A stretch of DNA of 43,404 nucleotides from a virus. The notes beneath the pieces were generated by a model. The model was not told where the DNA came from. It saw nothing but the letters and a program-made list of their open reading frames with translations, and searched no databases. Position numbers and translations under genes: made by a program. This document shows positions 2,377 through 42,491 of the stretch, one piece after another. How positions within the stretch are numbered: the first letter of the stretch is position 1; every line of letters begins with the position of its first letter. The stretch spans positions 1 to 43,404 of the IMG/VR virus record IMGVR_UViG_3300036850_000204. The stretch is one strand, 5' to 3'.

Positions 2377-2594
2377 TCGACGACAGCGACGCCGACTTCG
2401 CGCTGCTGGCGTCCATGGGCTCGACCGGCTGGGTCGGCTTTCTGCTGCTCGTGCTGGCCATCGTGCTGTACGTGGTGGCAGCCGACAACGCGGCTGAGTG
2501 CGCCGAGCGGTCGTGCCGCGTCGGTGTCGCCAAGCTCATCGACCACGAGTGCGTTTGCGTGGAGGCGCCAGCAAGTGAAAGGCGTCGCCCCTAA
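2373..2594 (+). CDS. Small single-pass membrane protein
   Basis: 73 aa with a GTG start in a GTGA overlap. The N-terminus is acidic (IDDSDADFALL). It is followed by one strong transmembrane helix at about residues 19-36 (VGFLLLVLAIVLYVVAAD) and a Cys-containing C-terminal domain (AECAERSC...HECVCVEAP). The predicted topology is a short periplasmic N-terminus with a cytoplasmic tail, or the reverse. No function is recognised. Its end overlaps the next gene by 20 bases. Confidence 0.55.
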   Translation: MIDDSDADFALLASMGSTGWVGFLLLVLAIVLYVVAADNAAECAERSCRVGVAKLIDHECVCVEAPASERRRP

Positions 2595-3027
2595 GCTACT
2601 CGTGGTCCGCGGCCGGGCCCTGTCGGTCAAGGACTGGGCCGCCGAGGCCGGCGTCTCGCCGTTCACGCTGTACGGCAGGCTACGCAACGGCGAGTCGCCG
2701 GAGGACGCCGTCGGCGCCGCCAGGCCAGCGGGAAGGCCGTCAAGCGGCACCGAGATGTGGGACGGCGCGCGGCAGCTCCGGTACGCAGACGACCTGGTCG
2801 CGCAGACGCTGGTGGGCGTGCGGGCGTACACGCAGCAGGAGGTTGCGGACATGCTCGGCGTCACGCGTCAGCGGGCACAGCAGCTCGAGGAAGACGCGCT
2901 CAAGGCGTTCGCGAGGCGGGCGCTGTCGATGGGGCTGACGGCGGACCTGTGCGGCGGTCTGGTGGCGCTGGACGAGGCCAGGGACGCACGGGCGGCGCGG
3001 TGGCCGGTCGATGAGGGGGATGAGTGA
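2575..3027 (+). CDS. Sigma-70 region 4-like helix-turn-helix protein (second of two)
   Basis: 150 aa. The GTG at 2575 is chosen because it sits only 20 bases inside the previous gene; the longer frame would start at 2524 and overlap far more. Residues about 85-114 (YTQQEVADMLGVTRQRAQQL then EEDALK) form a region-4-like HTH. The N-terminal module (residues about 18-46, VKDWAAEAGVSPFTLYGRL) parallels that of the 592-1074 protein: SEWQREL-type helix, LY-RL core, then a Glu-Asp-Ala helix. The two are therefore diverged paralogues. They probably bind different promoters or act in sequence, but this is inference. Confidence 0.72.
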   Translation: MKGVAPKLLVVRGRALSVKDWAAEAGVSPFTLYGRLRNGESPEDAVGAARPAGRPSSGTEMWDGARQLRYADDLVAQTLVGVRAYTQQEVADMLGVTRQRAQQLEEDALKAFARRALSMGLTADLCGGLVALDEARDARAARWPVDEGDE

Positions 3028-3179
3028 CCGCCGCGCGCCACGCCTTCTGGTCGCTCGCGTTCGCGGTGGTGCTGTCGGCGCTGCTGTGGGCGTTCTGCTG
3101 GGGCCTGTTCGTCTGCGGCTACGCGATGGGCGTGCTGGCCGGGCAGCAGGAGTGCGGGGAGGGTGGTGACAGTAAGTGA
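3024..3179 (+). CDS. 51-aa membrane peptide
   Basis: Reading from the GTG at 3024 (GTGA overlap) gives a 51-residue peptide. It has a positively charged start (TAARHAF), one long hydrophobic helix (WSLAFAVVLSALLWAFCWGL, continuing into FVCGYAMGVL) and a short polar tail (AGQQECGEGGDSK). The next gene starts at its stop by another GTGA overlap, so it fills the gap exactly. It is likely a small single-pass membrane protein of unknown role. Confidence 0.55.
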   Translation: MTAARHAFWSLAFAVVLSALLWAFCWGLFVCGYAMGVLAGQQECGEGGDSK

Positions 3180-3961
3180 CGTGGTTCAAGGTCGACGATG
3201 GGTTCTATGACCACCCCAAAGTCAACGATCTGAGGTCTGGGTCGTGCTACTCCGACGCCATCGCGCTGTGGCTTTTGGCTGGCTCGTGGAGTTCCAGGTA
3301 TCTGACTGACGGCGTTGTCCCAGAGAGCCAGGTGAGGCGATTCGGGCTCAAGCGGCCGGCCGCCGCGGAGCTTGTAAGGGTGCGACTCTGGTACGAAATC
3401 GATGACGGCTACGCGTTCCACGAGTGGGCCGAGCACCAACCAACCCGCGACGACGTACGGACGCGGCGCAAGTCTGCAACCGATCGTCAACGCAGACACC
3501 GTCACGGCGTGACTAACGAGTCACAAGGTATACGCGCGCGTTCTCCCGTCCCGACCCGTCCCGACCTACCAGAAAAACCTGAGACGCACTGCGTCATAAG
3601 CGGGCACGACCGCGTCAACGCTGCGCTCGACTCCAACGGTCTGCTCGTTGCCGACATGGCCTGGCTGGACACGCCAGAAGAGACAGCACGTCGTGCATCG
3701 GTGGACGCGGCGCCGTCAGTGGTCGCAAGCGGCGACAGCGACGGCACGGACTCGTTGCTTGGCGAGCTGGTAGACGCTGCGCTGCGCGAAGGCGTCAGCG
3801 TGCCGCAGCCGGCGACGTGGGATGGGCTGCGTGAGGCTGCGCGGCGCGTAAGGCTGGGCAGCGACGACCGGAGGCTGGTGGAGGCCTTCGACGAAGTGAC
3901 GGGCACGCGTGACCCGATGGCGATGCCGCCGCGGGTGCGCAAGGCGAGGAGGAGCGAGTAA
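3176..3961 (+). CDS. Replisome-organiser/DnaD-N-like DNA-binding protein
   Basis: 261 aa with a GTG start in a GTGA overlap. The N-terminal 100 residues (TWFKVDDGFYDHPKV, DAIALWLLAGSWSSRYLTDG, VVPESQVRRFG, FHEWAEHQPTRDD) have the layout of the winged-helix domain found in many phage replication-initiation or replisome-organiser proteins. A basic, low-complexity linker follows (RRKSATDRQRRHRHG). The C-terminal 150 residues are acidic and Ala-rich with no recognised ATPase or helicase motif. The likely role is origin binding or helicase loading. The assignment rests on the N-terminal pattern only. Confidence 0.6.
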   Translation: MTWFKVDDGFYDHPKVNDLRSGSCYSDAIALWLLAGSWSSRYLTDGVVPESQVRRFGLKRPAAAELVRVRLWYEIDDGYAFHEWAEHQPTRDDVRTRRKSATDRQRRHRHGVTNESQGIRARSPVPTRPDLPEKPETHCVISGHDRVNAALDSNGLLVADMAWLDTPEETARRASVDAAPSVVASGDSDGTDSLLGELVDAALREGVSVPQPATWDGLREAARRVRLGSDDRRLVEAFDEVTGTRDPMAMPPRVRKARRSE

Positions 3962-9888: not shown

Positions 9889-11358
9889 GTGCAGGTATCA
9901 CCGATTCTGCTTGTGGACGGGTACAAGGTTGGGCACCGTCAGCAATACCCAGCAGACACCGAAGAGGTGTACAGCAACCTGACTGCCCGCAAGGGGCGGG
10001 ACGGGTCGTTCGACGGCGTCGTGTTCTTTGGCCTGCAGTACTTCTGCATCGAGTACCTGGAGCGCCAGTTCAACGCGTGGTTCGCGCGGTCCGAGGGCGC
10101 GGTGATGGCGGAGTACGAGCGGCGCATCGGCGGTTACCTCGGCAAGGACGCGATGACGTACGAGCACATCCGCGCGCTGCACCGTCACGGCAGTCTGCCG
10201 GTGCTCATCAAGGCGGTGCCGGAGGGGGCGTATGTGCCGTACGGCGTGCCGATGCTGACCATCCGCAACACGCGGCCCGAGTTCTTCTGGGTCACGAACA
10301 TGCTTGAGACCGTCATGTCGGCGGTGCTGTGGAAGGCATGCACGTCGGCGACCAACGCGCGCGCATACCGCCAAGCCTTCGAGCGCTACAGCCGCGATAC
10401 CGTGGGCGACACGAACCCGTTCGTTCCGTGGCAGGGGCATGACTTCTCGTTCCGTGGCATGAGCGGTGTTGAGGACGCCTGCGTGAGCGGCGCGGCTCAC
10501 CTGCTGTCGTTCACGGGCAGCGACACGGTGCCGGCTATCGACTTCCTGGAGGAGTACTACGGCGCCGACTCCGACCGCGAACTAATCGGAGGCAGCGTGC
10601 CTGCCACTGAGCACAGCGTGATGTGCATGGGCATGGAGGAGGGCGAGCGCGAGACGTTCCGCCGGCTCATCACCGAGGTCGTGCCCAAGGGCGTCGTGTC
10701 GATCGTCTCGGACACGTGGGACTACTGGAAGGTCGTCACGGAGATCCTGCCGTCGCTGCGCGAAGAGATTCTGGCGCGCGATGGCAAGGTCGTCATCAGG
10801 CCCGACAGCGGCGTGCCCGAGCACATCATCAATGGCGACCCGAACGCGACCGCTGGCAGCCCGCAGCGCAAGGGCACGATTCGGCTTCTCGACGAGATCT
10901 TCGGGCACACGCTGACGCCACGCGGCTACAAGGTTCTCGACTCGCACATCGGGCTAATCTACGGTGAGCAGATCCACCGCGAGCGGCAAGAGAAGATCCT
11001 GGCCGGTCTCAAGGCCAACGGTTACGCCAGCGACAGTGTGGTGCTTGGCATCGGGTCATACAACTATCAGTACGTGACGCGCGACACTCACGGTTTCGCC
11101 ATCAAGGCGACGTTTGGGCGCACGACGTCTCGCGGCGACGTGGCCATCCACAAGGACCCGAAGACCGACGACGGCACGAAGAAGTCCGCGAAGGGCCTGC
11201 TACGCGTCGACCGCGTCGACGGCAAGCTGACGCTGCGCCAGGGCGTGACCCGCGAAGAGGAGTCCGGCGGCGCGCTTGAGCCGGTGTTCGAAGACGGCTA
11301 CTTGCTGCGACGCCAGACGCTGGCCGACATCCGAGCGCGAGTGGAGGCCGAACTGTGA
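9889..11358 (+). CDS. nadV: Nicotinamide phosphoribosyltransferase
   Basis: 489 aa, typical length for NAMPT. It condenses nicotinamide with PRPP to give NMN and pyrophosphate, the first step of nicotinamide salvage to NAD+. Active-site motifs are intact and align with the human enzyme at a nearly constant offset: HDFSFRG (R189, human R196), GSDTVPA (D212, human D219), SVPATEHS (H242, the phosphorylated His 247 of human), IVSDTWD (D275, human D279) and VIRPDSG (R304 and D306, human R311 and D313). The C-terminal GIGSYNYQYVTRDTHGF and KDPKTDDGTKKSAKG loops are also family features. The GTG start is 3 bases after the previous stop and the gene overlaps prs by GTGA. No NMN adenylyltransferase is seen, so NAD+ formation would need the host enzyme or a gene outside the window. 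Confidence 0.95.
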   Translation: MQVSPILLVDGYKVGHRQQYPADTEEVYSNLTARKGRDGSFDGVVFFGLQYFCIEYLERQFNAWFARSEGAVMAEYERRIGGYLGKDAMTYEHIRALHRHGSLPVLIKAVPEGAYVPYGVPMLTIRNTRPEFFWVTNMLETVMSAVLWKACTSATNARAYRQAFERYSRDTVGDTNPFVPWQGHDFSFRGMSGVEDACVSGAAHLLSFTGSDTVPAIDFLEEYYGADSDRELIGGSVPATEHSVMCMGMEEGERETFRRLITEVVPKGVVSIVSDTWDYWKVVTEILPSLREEILARDGKVVIRPDSGVPEHIINGDPNATAGSPQRKGTIRLLDEIFGHTLTPRGYKVLDSHIGLIYGEQIHRERQEKILAGLKANGYASDSVVLGIGSYNYQYVTRDTHGFAIKATFGRTTSRGDVAIHKDPKTDDGTKKSAKGLLRVDRVDGKLTLRQGVTREEESGGALEPVFEDGYLLRRQTLADIRARVEAEL

Positions 11359-12203
11359 AGATCCTCAACCTCATCAACGCAGGCCGCGGCGACATCGCGT
11401 TCAAGCGCTTCCGCTTCCCCGACGGGCAGGCTCACATGGAGCTGGAGTCAGAGGTTGGCGAGTGGGAGCACGTGCAGATCCTGGCACGCCTGCGCAGCGC
11501 CGAGGACATCCTCGAGTTGGGCATGGCGGTAGACTGCGTGCGCTCGTACGTGCGCGGTCGCATCAGCGTCAACATCGCGTACATGCTGGGCGCTCGCATG
11601 GACCGGGCGATCGGCGCAGGGAAGCCGTTCACGCTGCAGACCATCGCGGGCATGGTCAACGCCGCGTGCGCCGAGGCGAACGACGTGCGCATCCTGGACC
11701 CGCATTCGCCGGTGACGACGCAACTGGTGAAGCGGTCGACGCACATCGACCCGACCACGCTGGTCGAGTCGTCGCTATCGTCTGACGACGTGGTTGTCAT
11801 CCCTGACAAGGGCGCCATACCGCGCACGACCGAGATCCTGCGGCTAATCAAGTACGGCGCACGGCCCATCGCGACGTGCGACAAGGTGCGCGACCCGGCG
11901 ACCGGCAAGCTGAGCGGGTTCACGTTGGTGTGGGGCGACGTCAAGGGCCGGTCGTGCCTCATTGTGGACGACCTGTGCGACGGCGGCGGGACGTTTGCTG
12001 GCGTGGCCGGTGTGCTGCGTGAGGCGGGGGCCACGGCGGTGAAGCTGTGCGTGACGCACGGCGTGTTCTCTCGCGGCCTGCCGATTGCCGGCATTGACTG
12101 CGTGTACACGACCGACTCCTACCAGAGCAGGTCGAGCGTTTGGCATGGCGCGGTGGACGTTGCGGAGGACTACCTGCTCAAGTGGGTCACGGGGTCGAAG
12201 TGA
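11355..12203 (+). CDS. prs: Ribose-phosphate pyrophosphokinase (PRPP synthetase)
   Basis: 282 aa, shorter than the roughly 310-aa bacterial enzyme. It transfers pyrophosphate from ATP to ribose 5-phosphate, making PRPP, the co-substrate of the adjacent NAMPT. Motifs: FPDGQ (residues 21-25; bacterial FPDGE), YMLGARMDRA (bacterial Y-P-x-x-R-x-D-R), DPHS (115-118), and the PRPP-binding loop LIVDDLCDGGGT with D205-D206, where bacterial enzymes usually have DDxxDTGGT. The flexible catalytic-loop region around VIPDKGA is diverged from the canonical SPD-G form. The GTG start overlaps nadV by 4 bases, so the two are translationally coupled and probably made in fixed ratio. Confidence 0.92.
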   Translation: MKILNLINAGRGDIAFKRFRFPDGQAHMELESEVGEWEHVQILARLRSAEDILELGMAVDCVRSYVRGRISVNIAYMLGARMDRAIGAGKPFTLQTIAGMVNAACAEANDVRILDPHSPVTTQLVKRSTHIDPTTLVESSLSSDDVVVIPDKGAIPRTTEILRLIKYGARPIATCDKVRDPATGKLSGFTLVWGDVKGRSCLIVDDLCDGGGTFAGVAGVLREAGATAVKLCVTHGVFSRGLPIAGIDCVYTTDSYQSRSSVWHGAVDVAEDYLLKWVTGSK

Positions 12204-12260: not shown

Positions 12261-12572
12261 ATGCGCAAGCGCCTACGCAAGAAGCTTCGCCGCGGCGAGT
12301 TCACGGAGTACGGCTTTGCGCTTGCCGGCGTGCACTTATGCTTGAACGACGCCGCGCGCGACCTACTCACGGACTCGCTCTGCTACTTGGCCGAGCGGCA
12401 GGGGCTTGCGATCGGCGGTGGCGTTGGCGAGCACGTGTTCGATCTGTTCGTCACGAAGGCTGGTCGCGGAACGGTCACGCCGAGGCAGCGCGACGTCTAC
12501 ACGTCGATGGTTGGAGCTTGTGTGATGGTGGTGGCCGTCGAGGCGAGTCCGCTGGTGGACGCGTGGCGCTGA
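12261..12572 (+). CDS. YggL-like (DUF469) 50S ribosome-binding protein
   Basis: 103 aa, close to the 108 aa of E. coli YggL. The N-terminus MRKRLRKKLRRGEFTEYGF matches the family hallmark (basic RRLRKK, then x-EF-x-E-x-GF) that marks DUF469/YggL, a protein reported to bind the large ribosomal subunit. The rest (LNDAARDLLTDSLCYLAERQ, GGVGEHVFDLFVTKAGRGTV and a final helix ending DAWR) keeps the family order: helix, Gly-rich strand pair, helix. The ATG is preceded by GAGAATTGAG. A phage copy could bias or protect host ribosomes during infection; that role is inferred. Confidence 0.75.
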   Translation: MRKRLRKKLRRGEFTEYGFALAGVHLCLNDAARDLLTDSLCYLAERQGLAIGGGVGEHVFDLFVTKAGRGTVTPRQRDVYTSMVGACVMVVAVEASPLVDAWR

Positions 12573-19952: not shown

Positions 19953-20028
19953 CCACGGTAGAGGTCCGGTCGATCCGGCGCGCCTGATACGTGTGCTGTG
20001 CCTGGTTCGACTCCAGGACTGTGGACCA
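19953..20028 (+). tRNA. tRNA-Ile (anticodon GAT), CCA encoded
   Basis: 76 nt. The acceptor CCACGGT (19953-19959) pairs with ACTGTGG (20018-20024, one G-U pair), followed by discriminator A and genomic CCA. The anticodon arm CGCGC/GTGTG (two G-U) closes the loop C-T-GAT-A-C, with U33 in place and anticodon GAT at 19986-19988. The variable loop is CTGTG. The T arm CCTGG-TTCGACT-CCAGG is perfect. The D arm (19960-19978) has the normal length and a GG in the loop, but only two convincing base pairs, and position 8 is A instead of U. The gene may be functional or partly decayed. It would read ATC and ATT codons in late transcripts. Confidence 0.75.
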
Positions 20029-20755: not shown

Positions 20756-22207
20756 TTGACGCTGTCCGCTGCCGAGCGCCTTGCCCAGTACATGGGGGCG
20801 CTGAAGCCTAAGCCGTGGATTCAGGCGCTGCACCCATTGCAGCGCGAGGTGGCTCTAAGCTCGGCGCGATGGAAGGCCGTGACGACCGCCCGCCGAAGCG
20901 GTAAGACGGTGCTCGACACGGCGCTTGCGGCGGACGCTCTCGAGGAGAGCGACCACGACGAAGCCACGCTCTACATCGCGCGCAACCGCGGCGTAGCCAA
21001 GAAGCTGTTCTGGCCGAAGATCCGCGGACTGCAGCGCCACTACAAGCTCGCCTGGCATCCCAACGAGACAGAACTGAGCATCACCACCGAGCGTGGCGGC
21101 ATCCTGTACGTGGTTGGCGCCGAGGGCGGCGACCCCGAAGAGGAGATGGAGAAGCTCCGCGGCCTGAAGATGCGTCGCGTGATCTGCGACGAGCCAGGCA
21201 CGTACGCCTACACGCTACGCAGGCTGCTCAAAGACATCATCGAACCTGGCCTCGGCGACCTACGCGGCGACTGCATCGTCAACGGAACGCCGGGCATCGT
21301 CTGCACCGGCGCGTGGCACGAGATCAGCACGGGCATACTGCCGAAGGGCGACAAGCGCCCTGCCAAGTCGCTAGAGAAGTGGCGGCGCTGGCAGTGGGAC
21401 ATTCGCAACAACCCATTCTTCAGGGACTCCGCTCAGTACCTCGCCGACGTGCTTGAGGAGAACGGGTGGGACGAGGAAGAGCCCACGTTCCAGCGCGAGT
21501 ATCTCGGTCGCTGGGTCGTTGATCCATCCGCGCAGGTCTACCGATACGCAGCCAGCCGCAACGCTGTCACTGAGGTTCCGGGCTACGACGTGCATTCGTG
21601 GGTGCACACGGTTGGCACCGACTTCGGAGTCAACGACTCGAGCGCTTGGGCTGTGCTTGCAAGCCATCCGCACAAACGCGATATCTACGTGATCGAGTCC
21701 ATTGCGCGCAAGGGGCTGCTGCCTGAGAAGGCCGCTGAACTGACTCGCTCGCTGGTGAACAAGTATCGACCGCACGCGCTGGTCGGCGACTCAGGTGGTC
21801 TCGGCAAGCCATACGTGATGGCCTACAACGAGCGCTTCGACGCGGGCATCCGAATGGAGCCAGCCGAGAAGACTGAGAAGCGCGCCAACATCGAGTTGAT
21901 CAACGGCGACTTCACGAGCGGTCGCCTCAAGATGCTGATGCCTGCGTGCATGGACCTCGGCGGACAGCTCGAGAATCTGCCGTGGCACAAGGAAGACCGC
22001 GAGCACGAGCACCCAGGCTACGCGAATGACCGCGCAGACGCGATGAATTATGGGTGGAGGGCGCACCGCGCTTTCACGCATGAGGAGCCTGACAAGGCGT
22101 CTCATCGTACGCCCGTGCCCGGCGAGTCCAACTACGAGAGCTGGCTGCTCGAGCAAGAAGAACAGCAGTCACGCGACAAGCATAGCCGCCCTTGGTGGGC
22201 GAGCTGA
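20756..22207 (+). CDS. terL: Terminase large subunit
   Basis: 483 aa with a TTG start immediately after the previous stop. This is the ATP-driven packaging motor and nuclease. N-terminal ATPase: Walker A ARRSGKT (residues 45-51) and Walker B RRVICDE (D145-E146). C-terminal RNase H-like nuclease: GTDFGVND (D289), ALVGDSGG (D345) and NDRADAMNYGW (D425, D428), which supply the metal-binding acidic residues. Length and motifs are typical. A TTG start with no strong ribosome-binding site suggests low, coupled translation. It sits at the head of the structural genes and would act on the portal encoded 280 bp downstream. Confidence 0.95.
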   Translation: MTLSAAERLAQYMGALKPKPWIQALHPLQREVALSSARWKAVTTARRSGKTVLDTALAADALEESDHDEATLYIARNRGVAKKLFWPKIRGLQRHYKLAWHPNETELSITTERGGILYVVGAEGGDPEEEMEKLRGLKMRRVICDEPGTYAYTLRRLLKDIIEPGLGDLRGDCIVNGTPGIVCTGAWHEISTGILPKGDKRPAKSLEKWRRWQWDIRNNPFFRDSAQYLADVLEENGWDEEEPTFQREYLGRWVVDPSAQVYRYAASRNAVTEVPGYDVHSWVHTVGTDFGVNDSSAWAVLASHPHKRDIYVIESIARKGLLPEKAAELTRSLVNKYRPHALVGDSGGLGKPYVMAYNERFDAGIRMEPAEKTEKRANIELINGDFTSGRLKMLMPACMDLGGQLENLPWHKEDREHEHPGYANDRADAMNYGWRAHRAFTHEEPDKASHRTPVPGESNYESWLLEQEEQQSRDKHSRPWWAS

Positions 22208-40598: not shown

Positions 40599-41705
40599 GT
40601 GCTCCAGTCTCAATTCTATGACCTCGCGGCTCCGGTGCCGGGCCAGGTATTTTCTCTAGCCCACTCGCTTACCGCCGCAACCTACGCAATTCCACCGCAG
40701 TGGCGAGGCAAGATCGTTGACTTCACCAGCACCGGAGCAGACCTCTACGTTCTGATCGGCGACGCCAACACGCTGATCGAGTCTGCAGAGGTTGCCGTGT
40801 CTGTTGGTGGCACGCTGGCGTCCAACTGGGCGTCGGGCGACATCGTCCCGGCTGGCGCAACCAAGCCGATTCCCATCCCGGAAGATCCGCTCATCACCCA
40901 CTTCGCGGTCGACTCGTCGGTGGCTGCCGGGCAGTGGTCGGCGCGCGTGTCGAGCGGCAACCCCGCGTACTGGGGAGAACAACTGCCAGCCGCTGTCGGG
41001 AGCCCGCTCCTGTGGATCGACGCCGGATACCGCAGCCTGCTCGCCGTCGACTCTGGTGCGGTCACGGTGTCGAGCGCCAAGAGTCGGCCGAACGGCTACC
41101 AGTTCAGCGAGGCGTCCGCAAAGCCCGATCTGCTAACCGCCGCCGGTTCGGGCGCAGGACTCATCCGCCCCGCGCTCAGCTTCGTAGCCGGCAGCTCCGA
41201 AAAGCTGCTGTGCGCAGACGCGGCGCTGGCAGCCGCGCTTGCCGGCAACGTCTCGTTCACGCTGTTTGTGTCGCTGCGCCGCGCCACCACCGGCGCCAAC
41301 CACACCATTTTCAGCGTCAACACCAGCGGCTCGGCGAACGGTCACTTCGACCTCGCGGTGGACAGCAGCGACGACCTGGTGATGACGCGCGTCGACTCGT
41401 CAGGCAACTCGGCGACGGCAACTTACACAGCGTCGCTCAACACCGCGTACAGCATCGTCATCACGTACGACGGGACCACCAACGTACTGTACGTCGACGG
41501 CACCGCCGACACGTTCACAGCGTCTGGCACGTTCGCGACCATCGGCACGCCCACGCACGTGTCGATCGGCTCGCGCTTCATCAACGCCACCCACGACCGC
41601 TACGCAACGATGGAGTTGTGCGACCTGATGCTGTTCAACGAGGCGTTCACCGCTCCAAAGCTGACGGCTCTACAGGACTGGGTTCGTCGTCGGACCGGGA
41701 AGTAA
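40599..41705 (+). CDS. Tail adhesin with LamG/concanavalin-like domain (first)
   Basis: 368 aa with a GTG start and AAGGAG upstream. The N-terminal 130 residues are beta-rich (DFTSTGADLYVLIGDANTLI; AVSVGGTLASNWASGDIVPA) and probably anchor the protein to the tail. Residues about 135-365 form a LamG-like jelly roll: SPLLWIDAGYRSLLAVDSGA, ALSFVAGSSEKLLCADAALA, NVSFTLFVSLRRATTGANHT, SIVITYDGTTNVLYVDGTAD and a terminal helix (TAPKLTALQDWVRRR). Such domains bind glycans, so this is a likely receptor-binding protein. It is followed after 3 bases by a second LamG-like gene. Confidence 0.7.
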   Translation: MLQSQFYDLAAPVPGQVFSLAHSLTAATYAIPPQWRGKIVDFTSTGADLYVLIGDANTLIESAEVAVSVGGTLASNWASGDIVPAGATKPIPIPEDPLITHFAVDSSVAAGQWSARVSSGNPAYWGEQLPAAVGSPLLWIDAGYRSLLAVDSGAVTVSSAKSRPNGYQFSEASAKPDLLTAAGSGAGLIRPALSFVAGSSEKLLCADAALAAALAGNVSFTLFVSLRRATTGANHTIFSVNTSGSANGHFDLAVDSSDDLVMTRVDSSGNSATATYTASLNTAYSIVITYDGTTNVLYVDGTADTFTASGTFATIGTPTHVSIGSRFINATHDRYATMELCDLMLFNEAFTAPKLTALQDWVRRRTGK

Positions 41706-41708
41706 TTC

Positions 41709-42491
41709 GTGAGCCGCCGCAACCGCGCTCGCTCGCGCTACGGCTCACGGGCAACCGTAGAGGCCCCGCAGCAGGTCGCTGGCCTCAAGGCCTGGTGGGA
41801 CGCCCGCACGAACGCGTACATGACGATCGCCACCGGCGTATCCGCGTGGTTGTCGCGTGCAGGCTCGATGGGAAGCGTTGCGTTGTCTCAGGCCACCGGC
41901 GGTAACCAGCCTGCGTACGCTACTGCCGTTGCGTCGCTGAACGGAAAGAACGCTGTGCAGTTCGATGGCACAGACGACTTTCTGCAGGCCGCCACCGAGT
42001 CTGACTGGATCTTCACGCACGACAATACCGGCGCGACCATCTTCACGGTCGAGCGCGTCGATAGCACCGGTGGCGCCGACCAGTTTTTCATTTCCACGCA
42101 GGAACTGCTCGCAACGACGGTTGGCACTTGTCAGCGGATGCGCCTGGCCTCGCTGGAGGCCGTGGTCGCCAATGGCAGCGGCACGCTTCAGAACAACTGG
42201 GTCAATAACACCGCAGGGCACTTTGCGCGCGACGTCTCGAGGTGGCGCGCGTGGTCGTACGGCGGCGGTGCGCTGACCAGCGCAATCAGCGGAAGCACCG
42301 TCACGAACAACGATACCGGCGGCCAGACACCGTCTACCAGCGCGCCGCTTCGCGCGCTGCGGCTGAGTCGCTCTACGTCACCGCTAAAGGGCTACATCGC
42401 GCAGGTCATCATCTACAACCGCGTGCTGTCCGCTGGTGAGCGCGCTCAGCTCGCTGCGTGGGCGGCGGCCATCTACGGCGTAACAGCGTGA
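41709..42491 (+). CDS. Tail adhesin with LamG/concanavalin-like domain (second)
   Basis: 260 aa with a GTG start. A short basic N-terminus (SRRNRARSRYGSRATVEAPQ) precedes a single LamG-like domain: GLKAWWDARTNAYMTIATGV, GKNAVQFDGTDDFLQAATES, GATIFTVERVDSTGGADQFF, LKGYIAQVIIYNRVLSAGER and the final helix AQLAAWAAAIYG. The order of elements matches the domain in the preceding protein, so the two may be tandem duplicates that diverged. It lacks the first protein's anchor domain, so it may bind to another tail protein. It overlaps the next gene by GTGA. Confidence 0.68.
   Translation: MSRRNRARSRYGSRATVEAPQQVAGLKAWWDARTNAYMTIATGVSAWLSRAGSMGSVALSQATGGNQPAYATAVASLNGKNAVQFDGTDDFLQAATESDWIFTHDNTGATIFTVERVDSTGGADQFFISTQELLATTVGTCQRMRLASLEAVVANGSGTLQNNWVNNTAGHFARDVSRWRAWSYGGGALTSAISGSTVTNNDTGGQTPSTSAPLRALRLSRSTSPLKGYIAQVIIYNRVLSAGERAQLAAWAAAIYGVTA

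Follow-up and report, generated by a model that had tools for sequence, protein, structure and literature searches.

A putative NARP1 gene pair of divergent sequence and Namat-first order in a 43,404-base virus contig

Two adjoining genes of an IMG/VR virus contig very probably constitute a NARP1 module, composed of a nicotinamide ADP-ribose transferase (Namat) and an ADP-ribose pyrophosphate synthetase (Adps), as judged from the residues and motifs of the encoded proteins. The pair is most likely a new and divergent example of this already known system. The window, i.e., the whole stretch of DNA analysed, comprises the entire source record IMGVR_UViG_3300036850_000204 (43,404 bases, classed as ‘linear’). 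ORF 1 (9889–11358, plus strand) has a GTG start and encodes a Namat-like protein of 489 amino acids from the NAMPT superfamily, while ORF 2 (11355–12203, plus strand), also with a GTG start, encodes an Adps-like protein of 282 amino acids from the Prs superfamily. The genes follow one another on the same strand in the order Namat–Adps, an arrangement consistent with NARP1, and the start codon of ORF 2 lies inside the stop of ORF 1 in a 4-base GTGA overlap (11355–11358, plus strand). Both the gene limits and the overlap had been correctly reported in the initial annotation. The unusual points of the pair are its Namat-first order, its nearest relative, which is a bacterial chromosomal locus, and a YGEQIH motif in ORF 1.

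In NARP1, Adps turns ADP-ribose into ADPR-PP, which Namat then joins to nicotinamide to give NAD+ (PMC12774641). The two enzymes are homologous to Prs and Nampt, respectively, and are usually annotated as such. Synthesis of NAD+ from ADP-ribose has been demonstrated for homologues from SPbetaL1 and P. foliorum (PMC12774641), as well as from DyoEdafos, and the same chemistry is proposed for the window pair by analogy with these biochemically proven enzymes. ORF 2 would use ATP to pyrophosphorylate ADP-ribose at its ribose end, and the adenine of the resulting ADPR-PP would be gripped by ORF 1 between Arg37, Tyr391 and Tyr395. Nicotinamide would then be joined to ADPR-PP, yielding NAD+ directly with no NMN step. 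ADP-ribose and nicotinamide are the leftovers of NADase defences (TIR, SIR2 and SEFIR effectors), and the phage could thus refill the emptied NAD+ pool.

In profile searches, ORF 1 matched phrog_448, a family of phage nicotinamide phosphoribosyltransferases (1.5e-184), PF04095 (6e-27) and PF18127, and ORF 2 matched phrog_619 (2e-64), PF00156 (4e-11) and PF14572; full-length family matches of such strength are beyond chance. The best PDB sequence matches of ORF 1 were 9W5X and 9W5W (1e-143), both of which represent SPbetaL1 Namat, as indicated by a 100% match to OQ921341 and by the data statement of PMC12774641. The same entries were the top Foldseek match of the ORF 1 AlphaFold model (pLDDT 86; TM 0.93), compared with TM values of 0.90 for NadV from Haemophilus ducreyi (HdNadV) and about 0.86 for human NAMPT. 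The alignment showed that the catalytic core of ORF 1 is kept (D10, Y12, F186, R189, D212, H242, R304 and D306), with the catalytic His242 of the Nampt/Namat core (10612–10614, plus strand) residing in a TEHSVM motif. The SPbetaL1 Namat core residues used for comparison (F189, R192, D215, R306, D308 and the catalytic His) all have their counterparts in ORF 1, and the six NAMPT residues listed in the initial annotation (R189, D212, H242, D275, R304 and D306) were likewise all present.

Namat and Nampt are told apart by residues of the selectivity clamp, which was defined in the solved structure of SPbetaL1 Namat by Lan et al. 2026 (PMC12774641) and consists of loop Arg40 together with helix residues Phe392 and Tyr396. 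In Namats the adenine is stacked between a loop residue (Arg, Lys or Tyr) and an aromatic helix pair, and the clamp helix bears the signature GSX-phi1-X-phi2-X-phi3-TRD (PMC12774641). The corresponding helix of ORF 1, GSYNYQYVTRD (11053–11085, plus strand), fits this signature, with Asn at phi1, as in L125 and L065, in place of the commoner Thr or Ser. In the alignment, Arg37 (9997–9999, plus strand) is the counterpart of clamp-loop Arg40, for which the role is described in PMC12774641; Y391 and Y395, the predicted adenine-stacking residues, stand for F392 and Y396, respectively, and T397 and D399 are kept. In contrast, four Nampt references (Xcc 7YQO, Matisse, GAP32 and D525) contain A, G, K, G at one of the clamp-helix positions and K, E, E, Q at the other and, unlike ORF 1, do not have the complete set of R37, Y391, Y395, T397 and D399. 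The presence of this set separates ORF 1 from canonical Nampt, which carries no aromatic adenine clamp.

In the phylogenetic tree, 194 Namat-side sequences were split from the four Nampts with a support of 1.0, and ORF 1 was placed on the Namat side. The same side contains HdNadV, which branches beside SPbetaL1 Namat but is employed in published work as an NMN-forming enzyme of the NadV type; its aligned helix reads GAQTYQRNTRD, and the loop Arg is lacking. Since an NMN-forming enzyme falls among the Namats, clade membership alone is no proof of donor choice, and its use as sole proof was dropped once HdNadV fell there. The argument for ORF 1 as a putative Namat is carried by its residues, not by its clade alone.

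Several variations on the clamp were observed among the related sequences. A supposed clamp-less Namat subgroup (GAVTPDAIITRD) was rejected as partly an artefact of the motif pattern, as the alignment revealed GSFTYQ...I[I/V]TRD with an insertion in the clamp helix. Nine viral Namats that adjoin Adps (L039, L042, L059, L066, L067, L069, L070, L072 and L074) bear this GSFTYQ...I[I/V]TRD helix, a clamp variant in which several residues are inserted and Ile replaces the second aromatic residue. Another locus, L071, encodes two Namat-like ORFs (189 and 496 amino acids) with a single Adps upstream. In Chitinophaga, three ‘NAMPT’ homologues (L128, L139 and L145) carry the Namat clamp GS[Y/F]TYEYVTRD, with Adps downstream. 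The C. pinensis enzyme, which is in industrial use for NMN and has a reported Km near 5 mM, may thus be a Namat acting on a poor substrate.

ORF 2 was assessed by comparing motifs in 207 Adps-side sequences with those of 11 canonical Prs sequences, from E. coli and ten bacterial genomes in which NARP1 is also present; the Adps motif criteria were derived in the present analysis and are not published ones. Adps-side sequences mostly contain DxHS, KxRDxx[T/N]G and DD[I/L]C[D/A]GGxTF, while canonical Prs is characterized by D[L/V]HA and DDMIDTGGTL-type loops. ORF 2 carries DPHS (11697–11708), KVRDPATG (11883–11906; DKRRPxAN-type in Prs) and the ribose-phosphate loop DDLCDGGGTF (11967–11996), all on the plus strand, and displays neither the D[L/V]HA motif nor the DDxxDT-type PRPP loop of canonical Prs. 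The PRPP-synthetase motifs that had been called intact in this gene are thus, at the DxHA and ribose-phosphate-loop positions, Adps variants. Adps and Prs were split in the tree with a support of 1.0, and ORF 2 fell on the Adps side, apart from the 11 Prs sequences. The AlphaFold model of ORF 2 (pLDDT 89) adopts a Prs fold, with TM values up to 0.76 (Thermoplasma PRPP synthetase); a solved Adps structure was not found in the PDB.

The more conventional interpretation, in which ORF 2 is a PRPP synthetase and ORF 1 a NAMPT that together provide NMN, with a host NMN adenylyltransferase completing NAD+, appears very improbable. The superfamily matches of both ORFs are in keeping with it; SPbetaL1 Namat also yields NMN from PRPP in vitro at approximately half the rate of human Nampt (PMC12774641), and NadV from either H. 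ducreyi or S. oneidensis produces NMN in E. coli. ORF 1 may similarly form NMN as a second or side product. As the leading interpretation, this route was nevertheless rejected on the basis of the clamp residues of ORF 1, the Adps motifs that replace Prs motifs in ORF 2 and the positions of both proteins in their trees. An Adps-type partner is moreover present in nearly all relatives: of the 80 viral and 80 bacterial-contig relatives of the Namat locus, 77 in each set (154 of 160 in all) carry an Adps on the same strand, and in the three viral loci without one the matches reach or approach the contig end. The assignment as NAMPT plus Prs making NMN in the initial annotation is, in the light of these residues, motifs, trees and conserved partnership, most likely wrong; its proposal that the second enzyme feeds the first still holds, although the enzymes are more likely Adps and Namat than Prs and NAMPT.

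No NMN adenylyltransferase (PF01467, CTP_transf_like/HxGH) was found at E ≤ 10 across the 43,404-base, possibly incomplete record, which bears out the earlier remark that none was visible and also disfavours the NMN route. In NARP2, NMN is produced from PRPP, and an NMN adenylyltransferase is needed; with no PF01467 match at this threshold in the possibly incomplete record, a NARP2 assignment was rejected. For a NARP1 pair such a gene would be missing because NAD+ is made directly and no adenylyltransferase is needed. A RyDEP-type partner with a RyR domain, as in mycobacteriophage DyoEdafos, was also rejected, as no RyR-domain gene (PF02026) was found in the window.

One deviation from the known Namats merits consideration. 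The YGEQIH motif of ORF 1 (10960–10977, plus strand) is a variant of YGD[S/A]I[T/N], in which E360 and Q361 occupy the places of D361 and A362 in SPbetaL1 Namat. In the latter enzyme both residues contact the AMP phosphate, residue 362 reportedly through its backbone (PMC12774641). The Asp361 position is near-invariant: the relatives of ORF 1 carry YGD[S/A]I[T/N] or close variants, and ORF 1 alone, among 198 aligned sequences including Nampt, contains Glu. The substitution could have no effect, or it could adjust how the donor is used. That it impairs or alters the enzyme, such that the module is decaying or uses another donor, is suggested by its uniqueness at a position in contact with the AMP phosphate, but seems very unlikely: the remaining contact residues are all kept, Asp to Glu is a conservative change, the contact at the neighbouring position is through the backbone, and the two reading frames are uninterrupted and overlap as one unit. 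Even less probability is assigned to a bacterial-type, Namat-first pair in which Glu360-Gln361 shifts the donor to a different ADP-ribose-derived compound; were this the case, the pair would act against another signal or another depletion than the known NARP1. Glu360-Gln361 provides a natural variant for probing donor specificity.

The putative NARP1 pair also differs from most of its viral relatives in gene order. Namat followed by Adps is the minority arrangement, observed in 2 of 77 other viral loci (L012 and L013) and in 29 of the 77 loci on bacterial contigs, and Adps is first in every annotated phage pair (SPbetaL1, JH2, AhSzw-1, VMJ710, Calm, SAML-150, VEcB, LCK69 and a 42.6-kb Manatee Spring phage). 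In the trees, the nearest relative of both ORFs is L125, a chromosomal locus on a contig from the metagenome-assembled genome of a betaproteobacterium; identities are 71% for Namat and 43% for Adps. A search of plasmid DNA produced merely weak partial matches to ORF 1.

Within the fetched flanks, an NrtR-like Nudix regulator was detected at 76 of the 80 bacterial Namat loci (L125–L204), a KptA/Tpt1 RNA 2'-phosphotransferase near 25 and an ADP-ribosylglycohydrolase near 13, while such genes were near only one of 107 viral loci. Such neighbours point to ADP-ribose, not to ribose 5-phosphate. The bacterial loci that combine Namat with the NrtR-like regulator, KptA and ADP-ribosylglycohydrolase have the appearance of a chromosomal ADP-ribose salvage cluster. 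This setting suggests that NARP1 also serves in cellular ADP-ribose salvage, a possible origin of the phage pairs.

The bacterial setting bears on the role of the pair. With the same NARP1 chemistry, its main function might be general recycling of NAD+ and ADP-ribose, during infection or in a lysogen, as opposed to counter-defence. The chromosomal location of the nearest relatives, with their NrtR-like regulator and ADP-ribose-handling neighbours, would fit such a role, as would the host-centred reading of bacterial NARP1 in the literature and the fact that no known anti-defence neighbour was recognised in the window. The tested phage pairs, on the other hand, counter NAD+-depleting defence, as documented for SPbetaL1 (PMC12774641) and for ICP1 NrsAB, which restores NAD+ against Nezha as judged by NAD+ levels. 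General recycling as the main role is thus considered rather unlikely, and we infer an anti-defence role for the pair in the window phage. The initial annotation had pointed to the right area, phage NAD+ rebuilding versus NAD+-depleting defence, but cited NARP2 and missed NARP1.

The remainder of the window includes a recognisable large terminase (20756–22207) and a replication-initiation-like protein (3176–3961). Comparisons of the terminase and portal region revealed no close phage relative or host, and the record showed no long repeats, either terminal or internal. At the left edge (41–592), a DHH/DHHA1 phosphoesterase matches its profile from position 110 of 363, so that truncation of this gene at the contig end, and with it an incomplete record, is probable. 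Two proteins (592–1074 and 2524–3027), possibly paralogues, each combine weak matches of two kinds, HNH-endonuclease and sigma-70 region 4-like. A short distance downstream of the pair, a YggL-like 50S-ribosome-binding protein is encoded at 12261–12572 (PF04320, 5e-16). A tRNA-Ile (GAT) gene (19953–20028) is positioned immediately ahead of the packaging genes, and two adjoining proteins with laminin-G/concanavalin-like domains (40599–42491) are located past the tail region. In Pfam scans that covered most of the remaining window ORFs, no NAD-related domain came up, and the NrtR-like, KptA and ADP-ribosylglycohydrolase neighbours of the bacterial loci were likewise absent as far as these scans reached. 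A sigma-70-like site was not found near the pair, scans of this kind being weak evidence either way.

The pair illustrates a misleading annotation, in which adjoining phage ‘Prs’ and ‘NAMPT’ genes are more likely Adps and Namat. With the new labels, the predicted product is NAD+ instead of NMN, and ADP-ribose takes the place of ribose 5-phosphate as the substrate. As a divergent, Namat-first and bacterial-like example, the pair widens the known range of NARP1.

Among the known systems, the NARP2-type Nampt of GAP32 shares the Nampt superfamily core and nicotinamide use with ORF 1; in contrast to the window, where a clamp and an Adps partner are present and no adenylyltransferase was found, it is without the aromatic clamp and has an NMN adenylyltransferase nearby. 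HdNadV (PDB 9KE8 and 9KEO) has about 44% identity, the same fold and the same side of the tree, and differs in its helix, which has no aromatic pair, and in the missing loop Arg. The phages JH2 (Felixounavirus), VMJ710 (ICP1-like; NrsAB), Calm and Manatee Spring (MW202524) encode both Adps and Namat with the same clamp signature as the window, but place Adps first and otherwise exhibit no synteny with it. In the Bacillus phage SPbetaL1, the Adps and Namat genes likewise overlap or abut, and its Namat is about 50% identical to ORF 1 in the structural alignment, with the same core and clamp residues. The SPbetaL1 order is nevertheless reversed (Adps at 2659–3477 followed by Namat at 3477–4952 in L205), its Adps is only 32% identical to ORF 2, and E360-Q361 belongs to the window. 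The chromosomal NARP1 of L125 has the Namat-then-Adps order and the identical GSYNYQYVTRD helix, and is distinguished by cellular flanks (sulphite reductase and ATP synthase), the NrtR-like regulator and the sequence YGDSIT in place of YGEQIH.
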